The notes under the pieces are model-generated. The model worked only from the letters and a program-made list of their open reading frames with translations. It was not told the origin of the DNA and did no database searches. Source: Fusobacterium perfoetens ATCC 29250 (lineage in GTDB: Bacteria > Fusobacteriota > Fusobacteriia > Fusobacteriales > Fusobacteriaceae). Taken from it: a stretch of DNA of 64,000 nucleotides. A program made the position numbers and the translations under genes. The stretch lies in contig NZ_KK211416.1 in the NCBI RefSeq assembly GCF_000622245.1, forward strand, positions 1-64,000, in the 5' to 3' direction. Within the stretch, counting starts at the first letter, position 1. Every line of letters starts with the position of its first letter. Positions 7,676 to 56,246 of this stretch are shown piece by piece.

Positions 7676-7726
7676 GAAAAAAGGTTGTTACTATTAAAAA
7701 TTAAAATGTAACAACCTTTTATTTTT
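7676..7726. terminator. Bidirectional terminator
   Basis: AAAAAAGGTTGTTAC at 7677-7691 pairs with GTAACAACCTTTT at 7708-7720, with A/T runs on both sides. It separates the convergent sigma-54 activator and winged-helix genes. Confidence 0.88.
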
Positions 7727-8210
7727 ATCTTTTAAATTTATATCCAATTCCCCAAATAGTTATAATATATTCTGGAGAATCAGGATTCTTTTCAATTTTT
7801 TTTCTAATTTTTCTTATAAAAGCCATAATATTACTGTCATCTAAATAATATTCTTCATCCCAGACAGCTTGATAAATTTGTTCTTTAGTGAAAATTTCTC
7901 CTCTATTTTTAGCTAGAAAATAGAGAATATCAAATTCTTTTGGAGTTAATTGAACTTCTATATTATTTTGAGTAACTATTCTTTGTTTGTAGTTAATAAC
8001 TAAAGAATCACAGACAATTTCCTCTATCTCTTTTTTATTTGTATTTCCATCTTCTAATTCTAACATTAAAGACCTAGTTTTTGATGTTAAAAGTTCATCA
8101 ATACCTTCTAAAAATTCAGAAGTATCTTCCTCAATGTTACTATATTTTATTTTGTCATATAACCACTTTAAAAAAGAGGAATTTAAAGATATAAAATTTA
8201 TTTTTTTCAT
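7725..8210 (-). CDS. PhoB/OmpR-type winged-helix regulator lacking a receiver domain
   Basis: A 161-residue protein. The C-terminal ~95 residues form a clear OmpR/PhoB winged helix (LTPKEFDILYFLAKN, FTKEQIYQAVW, then IRKIRKKIE and a terminal IWGIGYKFKR hairpin). The first ~65 residues are acidic and do not show the Asp/Lys pattern of a response-regulator receiver, so control by phosphorylation is not evident. It follows the P-type ATPase at 8222-10852 by 11 bases on the same strand and is probably its cotranscribed regulator. Proteins of this fold bind tandem 7-bp repeats with 11-bp phasing, and such a repeat lies upstream at 10908-10925. Role in Mg2+ or metal control is inferred. Confidence 0.85.
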   Translation of the reverse strand: MKKINFISLNSSFLKWLYDKIKYSNIEEDTSEFLEGIDELLTSKTRSLMLELEDGNTNKKEIEEIVCDSLVINYKQRIVTQNNIEVQLTPKEFDILYFLAKNRGEIFTKEQIYQAVWDEEYYLDDSNIMAFIRKIRKKIEKNPDSPEYIITIWGIGYKFKR

Positions 8211-8221
8211 AAAAAATCCTC

Positions 8222-10852
8222 CTAATTATAAAGTCCATTATATTTTTTTATATAAAATATTTTAAATTTATTTACAACAAAAATATAACTTATAATAATA
8301 AATGATAGAAATATAAAATACCAAATTGGTAGAGATGTAAAACCAATATATTCTACTATAGGACTATATACAAAACAACTAAATATTATCAATCCAATAA
8401 TATTTAGAATTAAAATTCCAAATGAAAATTTACTATTTTTTGATATATCTTTTGATTTTAAAAGTTGTATTATCAAGGTCTGTGTCCAAAGAGAAACTAA
8501 AAACCAACCTGTATGAAATAATCCAATGAATTTATCTTGTAAATCATTGGATAAATTTATAAATAAATCTCCACAAATTTTAGGACACAAGAAATAATAT
8601 AAAAATAGAAAAGTTACAATATCAAAGACAGAACTTATAATACCAAAGTATATCATAAAACTTTCTAAATTTTTAGAGGATATTTTTTGTGGAAAAAAAG
8701 ATACATCTTCATCAATATTATCCCACGGCAAAGTAAAACAAAGTAAATCATAAATTAAATTTAATAATAAAAACTGAACTGCTGTCAATGGTTGAAATGG
8801 TAAAAATATACTTGCTATAACCATTGAAAATATATTTCCAAAATTTGAAGAGAAAGTTATTTTAATATATTTATTGATATTTATAAAAGCCTTTCTTCCC
8901 TCTAATATTCCTTGCTCTAAAATATTTAAGTCATTTTTTAATAAAATTACATCAGAGATATTTTTAACCTCTTCAACTGCAGAATCAACAGAAATTCCAA
9001 CACTAGAATTTTTTAAAGCACCTAAATCATTTAATCCATCTCCTAAAAATCCTACAGTATGTTTTTGTGAATGTAAAATGTCAATAATTTCTGTTTTTTG
9101 GTTAGGAGTTAAATCAGTAAAAATATTATATTTTTCAATAACATTTTTTAAAGATTCTTTATTAAGTTTACTTAATTCCAGTCCACTTATTAGGTTTAAA
9201 GGCTTAATATTTAATCTTTTACAAATTGAATAAGTAGTTTTTTCTTGGTCACCAGTTAAAACTTTTATATTAATATTTAATTTTTTTAGATTTTCAATAG
9301 AAAGAGAAGCACTTTCTTTTGGAGGATTGAAAAATACTAAATAACCAACTAATATTAAATCCTTTTCATCTTCAATAGAAAAATTTTCATCAATTTTTTT
9401 ATATGCAACTGCTAAAACTTTCATTCCATCTTCTAAAACTTCATCTATTACAGAATAAATATTTTCTTCATCTTTTTCATTATCAATTTTTTTAATAGTA
9501 TTTTTGTATTTAATATAACCACATTTTTTAAATATATTTTTGACATTTCCTTTTACTAAAATATATTTTTCATTATTATTTTTTACAATAACAGTTGTAA
9601 ATTTTCTTGTGTAATCAAAAGAAATTTCATCAATTTTTTTATTAGAATCTATTAAAGTTTTAAAATATTTTTTTTGACTAGGAATCTCCAAAAGTTTTAA
9701 AATAGATTTATCTAAATAATTTTTATTTTCACTATAATAACTATTTAAAAAAGCAAAATCTAAAACTTCTTTACTTTCATTCCCTAAAATATCCATATAA
9801 TATTCTAAAGAAATTTCATCTTTTGTTAAAGTTCCCGTTTTATCAACACATAAAATATCCATACTTCCAAATTTTTCTAAAGCATTTATATTTTTTATAA
9901 TAGTTGCTTTTTTTTCCATTTGAATACTTCCTTTTGTAAGACAAGCATTGATAACAATAGGAAAAAATTCAGGAGTAAGACCAATAGCTATGGATATTCC
10001 AAGAATAAAAGAATTCAACCACTCTTTTTTTAATAAACCATTTATTAAAAAGGATATTAGAATAAAAATTATTATAAATTTAATAAGAGTAAAAATAAAA
10101 GAATCAAAAGTTTTATTATAATCTTTTTTAGGAAGTTGTAAAATTTTTAATAACTTCCCATAAAGAGTATTTTCTCCTACTGATAAAATAATTCCCTCTC
10201 CATTTCCACTTAAAATATTACTTCCAGCATAAATTATATTATCTAAATTACTATAAGTAGAATTTTTAGAAAATAATTTATCAGAAGTTTTATTTATAAT
10301 CTTACTTTCTCCTGTGATGGCTGATTGAGAAACTAAAACTTTATTTTTAATAAGTCTTATATCTCCACAAACCTTATCTCCAACAGAAAGAATTACAATA
10401 TCACCTACTAATAAATCTTTACTTTGAATTTTTAAAATTTTTCCTTCCCTTCTTACAAAAATTTCACTTTCTATTTTAGAAAAAAGATTTTTGGCTCTAA
10501 GATTAGATTTTAATTCTTGAAAAAATCTTATTCCACCACCTAATAATAAAAATATAATCATAAAAAAAGACATCATTTTATTTTCAGTAAAATTTTTACC
10601 ATCTATGAAATATGAAATTATAGCAATAAAAAATAAAAGTAAATTAAAAAAATTAAAAAAGGATTTTTTCAAACAATCTAAAATTAAAAGTTTTTTAGAA
10701 AAATTTATTATATTTTTTCCATATTTTTTATTATTAATATTTATTTGAGAATTTTTAAGTCCATTTTCAGAGGAATTAAAAATTTTATAAATCTCATTTA
10801 TATCTTTAGAACTTATAGACCTTAAAAAATCTAAATATATATCTTTTTCCAT
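8222..10852 (-). CDS. MgtA-like P-type ATPase, divergent paralogue
   Basis: An 876-residue P3B-like cation ATPase. Visible are an N-terminal cation-ATPase domain, the actuator ITGES, the phosphorylation site DKTGTLT, the nucleotide/P-domain motifs TGDQEKT and GDGLNDLGAL, and about ten membrane segments with the C-terminal cation-ATPase domain. It aligns along its length with the divergent neighbour at 11002-13761. It differs at the TM4 ion-binding motif (PEFFPIV instead of PEMLPMIV) and at the usual GDGINDAxA hinge, so its ion preference may have shifted. It heads an operon with the winged-helix gene. An AAGGAGG site precedes the ATG, and an extended -10 (TGGTATAAT) lies at 10874-10882. Confidence 0.88.
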   Translation of the reverse strand: MEKDIYLDFLRSISSKDINEIYKIFNSSENGLKNSQININNKKYGKNIINFSKKLLILDCLKKSFFNFFNLLLFFIAIISYFIDGKNFTENKMMSFFMIIFLLLGGGIRFFQELKSNLRAKNLFSKIESEIFVRREGKILKIQSKDLLVGDIVILSVGDKVCGDIRLIKNKVLVSQSAITGESKIINKTSDKLFSKNSTYSNLDNIIYAGSNILSGNGEGIILSVGENTLYGKLLKILQLPKKDYNKTFDSFIFTLIKFIIIFILISFLINGLLKKEWLNSFILGISIAIGLTPEFFPIVINACLTKGSIQMEKKATIIKNINALEKFGSMDILCVDKTGTLTKDEISLEYYMDILGNESKEVLDFAFLNSYYSENKNYLDKSILKLLEIPSQKKYFKTLIDSNKKIDEISFDYTRKFTTVIVKNNNEKYILVKGNVKNIFKKCGYIKYKNTIKKIDNEKDEENIYSVIDEVLEDGMKVLAVAYKKIDENFSIEDEKDLILVGYLVFFNPPKESASLSIENLKKLNINIKVLTGDQEKTTYSICKRLNIKPLNLISGLELSKLNKESLKNVIEKYNIFTDLTPNQKTEIIDILHSQKHTVGFLGDGLNDLGALKNSSVGISVDSAVEEVKNISDVILLKNDLNILEQGILEGRKAFININKYIKITFSSNFGNIFSMVIASIFLPFQPLTAVQFLLLNLIYDLLCFTLPWDNIDEDVSFFPQKISSKNLESFMIYFGIISSVFDIVTFLFLYYFLCPKICGDLFINLSNDLQDKFIGLFHTGWFLVSLWTQTLIIQLLKSKDISKNSKFSFGILILNIIGLIIFSCFVYSPIVEYIGFTSLPIWYFIFLSFIIISYIFVVNKFKIFYIKKYNGLYN

Positions 10853-10907: not shown

Positions 10908-10925
10908 GCAAGAAAATCGCAAGAA
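10908..10925. promoter_or_regulatory. Tandem 7-bp direct repeats, candidate winged-helix operator
   Basis: GCAAGAA at 10908-10914 and again at 10919-10925, separated by AATC, giving an 11-bp phase identical in geometry to PhoB-type boxes. A weaker third copy (GTAAGAT) lies at 10896-10902. The repeat sits between the two divergent ATPase promoters. Confidence 0.5.
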
Positions 10926-10944
10926 TTTAACCATATTATTTATT

Positions 10945-10971
10945 TTGACTTTTTTATATCATATCTATGTA
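10945..10971 (+). promoter_or_regulatory. Possible promoter of mgtA
   Basis: TTGACT at 10945-10950 and TATGTA at 10966-10971 with a short 15-base spacer. The -35 is good and the -10 is weak. No Mg2+-sensing M-box can fit in the short leader. Confidence 0.35.
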
Positions 10972-11001: not shown

Positions 11002-13761
11002 ATGAGAATTAATAAAAATTTTCGTAACACTATTGAAACACAAAATAAAATTTTAAAAAAGGAGAAAATGAAAGAAAAGATTTTTTATTCTTCATCTAAT
11101 GCCTGTGAAGAATTATTAAAAAAGTTTAATAGTTCTATCAAGGGATTAGATGAAAAAAAGGTTGTAGAACACAGAAATTTGTATGGAAAAAATATAGTTA
11201 CTCATGAAAAAAAGAAAACTCTTTTAAAAAAAGTCGTAGAATCTTTTGTAAATCCATTTACAGCTATATTATTTTTCTTAGCAATAGTTTCAATATTTAC
11301 AGATATTATTGTACCAATATATCAAAATAATCCTGAAGAAATTTCTATTCTAACAGTAAGTATAATTTTAATTATGGTCTTTATGTCAGGAGCTTTAAGA
11401 TTTATTCAAGAATCTCGTTCAGGAAATGCTGCTGAAAAATTATTAGCTATGATTACAACTACTTGTACAGTTATAAGAAAGGAAGAGGGAGAAAAAGAGA
11501 TTCCTTTAGATGAATTAGTTGTAGGAGATGTAATTCATCTTTCAGCTGGTGATATGTTACCAGCTGATGTAAGAATTTTAGAAGCAAAAGATTTATTTGT
11601 AAGTCAGTCAGCTATTACAGGAGAAAGTGACCCTATAGAAAAAATTTCTAAAATAAATGAAGAAGAAAATATTTCTATTACTGATTTACAAAATATTGCT
11701 TTTATGGGAAGTAGTGTTATAAGTGGAACTGCTTTGGCTTTAGTAATTTCAGTAGGAGATGATACTTTATTTGGAAATATTGCTTCATCTGTATCAGAAG
11801 AATCTATTGAAACAAGTTTTTCTAAAGGGGTAAACTCTGTGTCTTGGGTTTTAATTCGTTTTATGTTGGTAATGGTTCCAGTTGTATTTTTTATAAATGG
11901 AATGACAAAAGGAAATTGGCTTGAGGCTTTTTTATTTGCTATCTCTATAGCTGTTGGTTTAACTCCAGAAATGTTACCTATGATAGTAACTACTTGTCTA
12001 GCTAAAGGAGCTGTTTCAATGTCGAAGAAAAAAACTATAGTAAAAAATTTAAATTCAATTCAAAATTTTGGAGCTATAGATATTTTATGTACAGATAAAA
12101 CAGGAACTCTTACTCAAGATAAAGTTGTATTAGAATATCATATGGATGTAGAAGGAAAAGAAGATACAAGAATTTTAAGACATGCTTATTTAAATAGTTA
12201 TTTTCAGACAGGATATAAAAATCTTATGGATTTAGCAATAATTGAAAAAACTGAAGAGGAAGAAAATGAAAATCCACAATTAGTGGATTTATCAAAAGAA
12301 TATCATAAAATTGATGAAATTCCTTTTGATTTTACAAGAAGAAGATTATCTACAATAGTTGAAGATAGAAAAGGAAAACGTCAAATGATTACAAAGGGAG
12401 CAGTTGAAGAGATGCTTTCTGTTTGTAAATATGTAGAACTTGAAAATGAAGTAAAAGAATTAGATGAAAAAATTATAAAAAATATTTTAAAAACAGTAAA
12501 CAGATTTAATGAAGATGGCTTTAGAGTTATAGCTATAGCACAAAAAACAAATATTCCAATAGTTGAAACTTACTCAATAGATGAAGAAAATGAAATGGTA
12601 TTAATTGGATATTTAGCTTTTTTAGACCCACCAAAAGAATCTACAACTGAAGCTATAAAAACTTTAAAAGAATATGGAGTAAAAACAAAAATTCTTACAG
12701 GAGATAATGAGAAAGTTACAAGATGTATTTGTAAACAAGTTGGATTAGAAATAAATAATTTACTTTTAGGTTCTGATATAGAAAAAATGAGTGAGATAGA
12801 ACTTATGAAAGCTGTTGAAGAAACAAATGTATTTGCTAAATTATCTCCTGAACAAAAAACAAAAATTGTTACTTCACTTCGTAATAATGGACATATAGTT
12901 GGATTTATGGGAGATGGAATCAATGATGCCTCAGCTATGAAGGCAGCTGATATAGGAATTTCTGTTGATACAGCAGTAGATATAGCTAAAGAATCAGCTG
13001 ATATAATTCTTTTAGAAAAAGATTTAATGGTTTTAGAAGAGGGAATAATAGAAGGACGTAAAACTTATGCTAATATGATTAAATATATAAAAATGACAGC
13101 TTCTTCAAATTTTGGAAATATGTTTTCAGTATTGGCTGCTTCAGCTTTATTACCATTTTTGCCAATGGAAAGTATCCATCTAATACTTTTAAATTTAATT
13201 TATGATTTATCTTGTGGAGCTATTCCTTGGGATAATGTTGATGAAGATTTTATAAAACTTCCTAAAAAATGGGATGCTTCAAGTATAGGAAACTTTATGA
13301 TATGGTTAGGTCCTACAAGTTCTATATTTGATTGGACAACTTATGCTTTTATGTATTTTATTTTCTGTCCTTTCTTTGTATCTCATGGAGTACTTTTTAA
13401 TGATTTAGTAAATCATTATAGTGGAGCTGAACTTCTTCAAATGAAACAAAATTATATAGCTATGTTTCAAGCTGGTTGGTTTGTAGAGTCTATGTGGAGT
13501 CAAACTTTAGTAATTCATATGATTCGTACAAAAAAAATTCCATTTATTCAAAGCCATGCTTCTGGTTCTTTAACTTTCCTAACTTTTACAGGAATAATAA
13601 TTCTTACAATAATTCCTTTCACAAGTTTTGGAAAAGCTATAGGATTTATACCTTTACCATCTTCATATTTTGGATATTTAATTCCTTGTATCTTATTATA
13701 TATGGGACTTGCTACAAGTTTAAAGAAAGCCTATGTAAAACATTTTGGAGAATTATTATAA
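11002..13761 (+). CDS. mgtA: Magnesium-translocating P-type ATPase
   Basis: A 919-residue P3B ATPase of the MgtA/MgtB family. The family imports Mg2+ into the cytoplasm with ATP hydrolysis. Visible are ITGESDP in the actuator domain, DKTGTLT (phosphorylation Asp), TGDNEK and GDGINDASA, and the TM4 motif PEMLPMIVT that is typical of MgtA. The start at 11002 is chosen because GGAGGG lies 7 bases upstream. An in-frame TTG at 10945 falls in the promoter -35 and lacks a ribosome binding site. The gene is divergent from a paralogous ATPase and is followed 15 bases later by a 49-codon membrane-protein gene. Regulation probably involves the direct repeats at 10908-10925. Confidence 0.92.
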
Positions 13762-13776
13762 AAGGAGGTAATAATT

Positions 13777-13926
13777 ATGAACTGGACAAATATTTGGTTA
13801 AAGTTATTTAATACAACAAATTTATTAGGAATTGATATGGGATTTTGGGTATCAATAGGAATAACTTTGATAATAGTTGCTGTTATGAATATTATTTTTT
13901 GGTCTCAAAAAACTTATAAAAAATAG
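13777..13926 (+). CDS. Small single-pass membrane protein downstream of mgtA
   Basis: A 49-residue protein that begins MNWTNIWLKLF and ends WSQKTYKK. Residues about 22-42 form one hydrophobic membrane helix with short, amphipathic N-terminal and basic C-terminal ends. It has a strong AAAGGAGG site 7-8 bases before the ATG and lies 15 bases after the mgtA stop, so it is surely cotranscribed with mgtA. A terminator follows at 13938-13974. Small membrane proteins that act on MgtA are known in enterobacteria (MgtR, MgtS), but this one shows no obvious similarity to them. A role as an MgtA partner or stabiliser is inference from position. Its last 35 bases overlap the convergent HNH-like gene. Confidence 0.75.
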   Translation: MNWTNIWLKLFNTTNLLGIDMGFWVSIGITLIIVAVMNIIFWSQKTYKK

Positions 13927-14542
13927 ATAGATTACATTGTGGGAGAGTTAAAAAGATAGACTCTCCCTTTTTATAAGAAAATTTAAAATATTTATTTTCA
14001 ATATCTTTTTTTATTATAAGTGAATTAATATTTTCTTTTGTTATTTCCTCTAAAAAATTTTCAAAAATTAAAGAATAATTAATTTTTTTATTAGTAGAAA
14101 AATTTATATTATTAATACTTTCTTTTTTTATTTTAAAATCTTTACTTTCAATTTTTTCAAAACCTAAAATTTCAAGTTTAAATATAATATATTTTAGCCA
14201 AAAAATAATATTTTCTTTTTCTAGAATAGAAAAATTTTTTTCCTCTTTAGCTAAAATATCTCTTATATATTGTTCAACTTTGCTTAAAATAATAGAATTA
14301 CATTTTTGACAACAAGGAAGATAAGCATTATGAAAAGAAAAAAGACAACTGTTTTCATTATAAAAACCAAGTTTTATATTTTTTTCAAAAGTCCATTGTG
14401 GGATTATATGCTCTTTTGTAATTCTTTTATCATTCCCACATAAAATACAAAAATTTATCTCTTTATTTTTAGTAAATAAGTTTAATGTTTTATTCAAGTT
14501 TATTTTTATTATATTTTTAATTTCGTTTATAGATTTATTCAT
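13892..14542 (-). CDS. HNH-endonuclease-like zinc protein of unknown role
   Basis: A 216-residue Lys/Ile/Asn-rich protein. An HNH-like zinc core lies near residues 32-80: CILCG, then KEHIIPQW, then CCQKCN. That is two CxxC-type zinc-binding pairs flanking an EHIIP segment resembling the first His of HNH nucleases. The rest is helical and unrecognised. It may be a small nuclease or a nucleic-acid-binding zinc protein; no partner methylase, toxin or antitoxin gene is adjacent. The C-terminal ~28 residues are encoded within the mgtA terminator and the tail of the 49-codon gene, so the original stop codon may have been lost. AAGGAG precedes the ATG. Codon use is extremely AT-rich. Confidence 0.6.
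   Translation of the reverse strand: MNKSINEIKNIIKINLNKTLNLFTKNKEINFCILCGNDKRITKEHIIPQWTFEKNIKLGFYNENSCLFSFHNAYLPCCQKCNSIILSKVEQYIRDILAKEEKNFSILEKENIIFWLKYIIFKLEILGFEKIESKDFKIKKESINNINFSTNKKINYSLIFENFLEEITKENINSLIIKKDIENKYFKFSYKKGESIFLTLPQCNLSIFYKFFETKK
13938..13974 (+). terminator. Terminator of the mgtA operon
   Basis: GGGAGAGT (13941-13948) pairs with ACTCTCCC (13960-13967) followed by TTTTTAT. It lies inside the last codons of the convergent HNH-like gene. Confidence 0.85.
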
Positions 14543-56151: not shown

Positions 56152-56246
56152 GGAAGCGGCAGAAAACTGGTGTTTTCAACAGTCTTCAAAACTGTATTGG
56201 TGGGACATAGTTCCATGATAGGTTCGATTCCTATACGCTTCCGCCA
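56152..56246 (+). tRNA. selC: tRNA-Sec (anticodon TCA)
   Basis: A 95-nucleotide tRNA with acceptor GGAAGCG pairing with CGCTTCC, discriminator G and encoded CCA. The anticodon arm is ACAGT-CTTCAAA-ACTGT, giving anticodon TCA, which reads UGA. A long variable arm (about TTGGTGGGACATAGTTCCAT) and extended D-stem fit selenocysteine tRNA. This shows the organism inserts selenocysteine. I saw no ORF in this window that needs an in-frame TGA to be read. The dipeptidase gene starts 28 bases after. Confidence 0.94.

Follow-up and report, generated by a model that had tools for sequence, protein, structure and literature searches.

Comparison across genomes indicates that a direct repeat lying between two Mg2+ pump genes of Fusobacterium perfoetens ATCC 29250 belongs to a conserved regulatory cassette. 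The repeat was found in a window of 64,000 nucleotides (contig NZ_KK211416.1, positions 1 to 64,000), in which it is flanked by the divergent genes mgtA1 and mgtA2, with the regulator gene REG following mgtA2 (Table 1). Both pumps score above the NCBIfam cut-off of TIGR01524 and are therefore MgtA-type Mg2+ P-type ATPases. Our best reading of these sequences is that REG, its operator and the pump genes form a mobile cassette, in which a VanR-like activator without a receiver would drive Mg2+ pump genes at low Mg2+.

Table 1. Features of the mgtA1/mgtA2-REG locus in window coordinates
Feature	Position	Strand	Basis
Operator, direct repeat GCAAGAA-AATC-GCAAGAA, 11-bp phase	10908..10925	+	Same site in 31/33 testable relatives
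Conserved TTTAACCAT adjoining second half-site; CCAT kept across loci	10926..10934	+	Locus comparison
Predicted -10 box TATCAT of mgtA1	10957..10962	+	38 nt from second half-site start; TANNNT at +38 in 32/32 sites
Extended -10 (TGGTATAAT) before mgtA2-REG	10882-10874	-	Similar to the TATGnTATAAT seen in mgtA2 promoters of Clostridia
mgtA1, Mg2+-translocating P-type ATPase, predicted target	11002..13761	+	TIGR01524, 1118 bits (cut-off 611)
mgtA2, second Mg2+-type P-type ATPase, partner of REG	8222..10852	-	TIGR01524, 689 bits (cut-off 611)
REG, 161-aa receiver-less OmpR/VanR-type winged-helix regulator	7725..8210	-	PF00486 only; VicR/YycF fold; family alignment

Two further features of the window were recorded. 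A 216-aa protein adjoining mgtA1 (13892-14542, minus strand) has a weak, sub-cut-off match to HNH_5 endonucleases, and a selenocysteine tRNA (RF01852, 67.8 bits) lies at 56152-56242 on the plus strand.

The repeat and its distribution

The two GCAAGAA copies described in the initial annotation, at 10908-10914 and 10919-10925 on the plus strand, are indeed identical (0 mismatches) and start 11 bp apart. A genome-wide search of the 2.1-Mb genome returned the repeat as the sole copy with fewer than two mismatches, and within the window it is the sole exact 7-bp repeat at this phase with at least three G/C. Taken alone it is nonetheless weak, since 3% of dinucleotide shuffles of the 149-bp intergenic region contain a perfect 7-mer repeat with 11-bp phase. 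It is conservation across species, rather than shuffle statistics, that rules out a chance repeat and settles our reading of the site as a genuinely regulatory one.

Among 98 Fusobacteriota genomes, REG is present in three: that of the window and two others (G058 and G095), which belong to one genus in a different family. The latter two have the gene order folA-mgtA2-REG-mgtA1, all in the same direction, and carry GTAAGAA-AATA-GCAAGAA-TTTAGCCAT between the REG stop codon and mgtA1. A search of the 98 genomes with the operator pattern gave matches in exactly the three REG carriers. A wider scan, using one genome per species of bacteria and archaea, identified 32 more REG genes, mostly in Clostridia, matched over nearly their whole length at 47-59% identity. 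All 34 relatives (these 32 loci and the two from Fusobacteriota) directly follow a gene for an MgtA-type pump. REG is usually followed by mgtC and/or mgtA1, and the stretch between REG and mgtA1 often contains a gene for MgtC (PF02308) or a DUF3784 protein. The initial annotation had staked its case on the repeats persisting in relatives that keep the gene pair. They persist, between REG and mgtC or mgtA1, in 31 of the 33 testable relatives (29/31 assessable clostridial loci and 2/2 from Fusobacteriota; the truncated locus L087 was left out), and in Fusobacteriota they occur exactly where REG does. As for the two exceptions, L058 keeps mgtA2-REG and has neither mgtA1 nor any operator, while in L070 the region after REG differs and a site on the mgtA2 side alone remains. 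Sites of this second class lie upstream of mgtA2 in most Clostridia and are absent from the Fusobacteriota members. Scores were 26-33 for sites on the mgtA1/mgtC side and 14-31 for those on the mgtA2 side, other sequence reaching at most about 16.

The pattern was also specific to the locus. In 15 whole clostridial genomes, 14 of the 15 matches fell at the mgt locus and a reversed control gave 0. The lone operator-like match elsewhere (G099:C67:12419-12435, L185; GCAAGGAAACAGCAAGA) is either an extra target or chance. When 299 genomes were drawn from the family of Blautia, a sample that overlaps the discovery set, the site was present in 7/8 REG-bearing genomes.

The Pho box, the site bound by PhoB, consists of 11-bp direct repeats of the CTGTCAT type. 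Of the PhoB geometry originally proposed for the window operator, the phase fits but the Pho box sequence does not, the half-site being closer to the VanR box. Indeed, the half-site consensus TCGCAAGAAAAT agrees at 11/12 positions with (T/C)CGTANGAAA(T/A)T, the VanR box consensus, which occurs as direct repeats upstream of the -35 (PMC4405338). The two consensus half-sites agree at 11 and 10 of 12 positions and variants at 8 to 9 of 12, as in a VanR-type operator. A little ahead of the first half-site, most clostridial loci (L059-L089) additionally carry TTCTTG(C), an inverted copy that the window lacks.

Promoter geometry and the predicted target gene

In relatives, the repeats have a single orientation, with the -10 of mgtA1 or mgtC 38 nt further on. 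In all 32 aligned mgtA1/mgtC-side sites, window included, a TANNNT box follows at a distance of exactly 38 nt, counted from where the second repeat starts (15/15 after dereplication); the next best offset was found in 6/32. The window repeats keep this geometry towards the plus-strand gene mgtA1. No recognisable -35 box was seen in the mgtA1/mgtC-side promoters of the compared loci, and the combination of upstream sites with a missing -35 suggests the layout expected of an activator. Sites on the mgtA2 side mostly lie 27 nt from an extended -10, i.e. one 11-bp unit closer. The initial annotation had assigned the repeats to the minus-strand promoter of mgtA2-REG. The extended -10 that it described exists, but this promoter has no half-sites in activating orientation, and the repeats had therefore been placed on the wrong side of the divergent pair. 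Orientation and spacing point to mgtA1 and rule out the minus-strand promoter as the main target. Taken together, the operator, its orientation and its predicted target, mgtA1, are strongly supported by comparison.

We accordingly regard it as very unlikely that the repeats activate mgtA2-REG in an autoregulatory manner and leave mgtA1 unaffected. The good extended -10 on the minus strand, and the fact that clostridial mgtA2 promoters carry sites of their own, would favour such an arrangement. However, the half-sites of the conserved arrangement face the gene that they regulate and stand 27 or 38 nt away from the -10, and those of the window face mgtA1; moreover, in G058 and G095 the site precedes mgtA1, while mgtA2 directly follows folA without one. 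It is also conceivable, though somewhat less likely than not, that a single operator serves the two divergent promoters, as an activating site for mgtA1 and as an activating or a repressing one for mgtA2-REG: just one site is present in the 149-bp divergent region, near the upstream edge of both promoters, but orientation and spacing are kept for mgtA1 only. A quite different explanation would be that the conserved element is an RNA structure (a leader, attenuator or terminator) rather than a protein site. Much as in an intrinsic terminator, a CCTTGC followed by a T-run lies downstream of the second half-site in most loci and could base-pair with it. This hairpin does not explain the conservation, since at least five loci (L061, L073, L083, L085 and L086) lack it or form it poorly although they retain both repeats and spacing. 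Furthermore, sites on the mgtA2 side precede the -10 and would not be part of a transcript started from it, and no Rfam match was obtained in 8 loci. As the hairpin is not kept at all sites, we rejected an RNA element, which we judge to be most improbable. The hairpin is probably the terminator of mgtA2-REG folded into the next promoter. At three loci (L064 6816-6870, L071 3523-3577 and L076 3468-3522) a GCAAGG/CCTTGC hairpin with a T-run overlaps the operator and promoter of the downstream unit, and terminator and promoter seem to share sequence there.

The regulator and its probable signal

The REG reading frame is open for just 166 codons, and most relatives start with a ribosome site and have nearby upstream stops. 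Its sole Pfam match is PF00486 (Trans_reg_C, E 3e-27), and an AlphaFold2 model (mean pLDDT 84.5) is a winged helix nearest to VicR/YycF (Z 18.8, rmsd 1.3 over 99 residues). Family match and fold together identify an OmpR/PhoB winged-helix DNA-binding domain. In agreement with the initial annotation, which had described a regulator lacking a phospho-receiver, no receiver family in Pfam matched the whole protein, nor was a receiver matched in the N-terminal part of 7 REG members at E values up to 10. REG is thus not a two-component response regulator, for which a receiver with a phospho-acceptor Asp is needed. The best NCBIfam match is VanR, at 96 bits against a cut-off of 350 and with the DNA-binding half alone matching, which places REG outside the VanR subfamily as delimited by the full-length model.

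The first 60 residues of REG gave no convincing match to a family or known domain. In profile comparison they resemble the beginning of a receiver only weakly (probability 1.5%; 10/300 shuffles score as high). Modelled alone by AlphaFold2 they form two helices (pLDDT 87), with no convincing match in the PDB, the best hits being at E 5.1 with Foldseek and Z 3.2 with VIA-align. They may be the remnant of a truncated receiver. Since this part has no convincing similarity to a receiver, REG is not expected to act through phosphorylation of a receiver in the ordinary way. The protein shows no evident Mg2+-binding signature.

A link to Mg2+ is suggested by the company that REG keeps. No M-box riboswitch (RF00380) scores above the gathering threshold in the window or the genome, as had been noted at the outset for the locus. 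In 18 Fusobacteriota genomes an M-box lies upstream of a homolog of mgtA1; the three REG genomes have none, and none of the 98 has both. One genome (G094:C1:2726594-2726983) has two tandem M-box riboswitches about 1.3 kb upstream of its mgtA1 homolog. In a tree, the mgtA1 genes linked to REG, that of the window among them, group with the clostridial copies in a single clade (support 99); the window gene stands beside Eisenbergiella (97), and those of G058 and G095 near a copy from Tissierellia (91). Because the Fusobacteriota copies nest inside the clostridial clade, the cassette appears to have spread by transfer, and it is likely to have reached Fusobacteriota on two or more occasions, bringing its own pump along. 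The tree argues against an in-place swap of riboswitch for protein, since the REG-linked mgtA1 genes came with the cassette; the contrast with the M-box is, on this phylogeny, one between xenologs, i.e. two regulatory solutions carried by related pumps. The MgtA-family pumps, MgtC and the M-box before homologous genes make a Mg2+ link of the operator-REG system likely, and from this we infer that Mg2+ is the signal of REG and that the response is a Mg2+ response.

Were REG a repressor, or were it to answer another signal (another ion, pH or envelope stress), its VanR-like domain and box would find a ready explanation in the envelope-stress family to which they belong, and some MgtA-like pumps may have different physiological roles. 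We consider this unlikely, since promoters that lack a -35 box and have their sites upstream of the -10 speak for activation, and MgtC together with the M-box before homologous genes favours Mg2+.

We therefore return to REG as an activator that would bind the repeats and switch on mgtA1, most probably upon Mg2+ shortage, a joint reading in which we have reasonable confidence. Binding of REG to the operator, and its role as an activator, are each likely from the comparisons above. Two REG subunits would sit head to tail on the 11-bp repeats, at about -61 and -50 from a predicted mgtA1 start some 7 nt after 10962. Bound REG would help RNA polymerase to initiate where the promoter offers no good -35 box, and for this reason we propose an activator. 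In most Clostridia, the second site before mgtA2, usually 11 bp closer to the extended -10, would provide autoregulation, while in the window one site lies between the divergent mgtA1 and mgtA2-REG units. The shortage would be sensed without receiver phosphorylation, with the N-terminal part of REG, its abundance or the paired pump as candidate routes. More tentatively, and with the balance somewhat against it, REG may be a one-component regulator of the OmpR/VanR type that has no receiver and detects cytoplasmic Mg2+, or the state of MgtA2, by itself. On this view REG, its operator and the pump genes would move together from one phylum to another as a mobile cassette for Mg2+ homeostasis, in the place held elsewhere by the M-box.

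Relation to known systems

VanR-type OmpR/PhoB response regulators share with REG the DNA-binding domain and a similar direct-repeat half-site, upstream of a weak -35 (PMC4405338), but REG lacks the receiver, is partnered by pumps rather than a kinase, uses an 11-bp phase and has Mg2+ pump genes as its putative targets. PhoP of the enteric PhoP/PhoQ system is likewise an OmpR-family activator; its targets include mgtA, mgtB and mgtC, and it is autoregulated (PMC2650801), activation and autoregulation being proposals in the case of REG. Unlike REG, which lacks a receiver and seems confined to its locus, PhoP comes with a receiver and a kinase and controls a broad regulon. The orphan regulators HP1043, ChxR and RitR have OmpR-type DNA binding and are independent of phosphorylation (PMC8345958, PMC3960148, PMC5965902); they keep a degenerate or repurposed receiver, whereas REG has about 60 residues in that place. 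The M-box (ykoK) also stands before homologous mgtA1 genes in Fusobacteriota, but is an RNA sensor as opposed to a DNA site with a protein, and the two did not co-occur in the 98 genomes searched. We found no prior description of the cassette in the open-licence literature.

Known control of bacterial Mg2+ uptake genes is mainly by two-component systems (PhoPQ) or riboswitches (M-box). The cassette of gut Clostridia and some Fusobacteriota appears to be a third solution, based on a small winged-helix protein without a receiver. Its operator is exactly defined, its promoter geometry is fixed, and homologous pumps preceded by either M-box or operator provide a natural contrast, so that the Mg2+ response of a stand-alone OmpR-type protein becomes directly testable.
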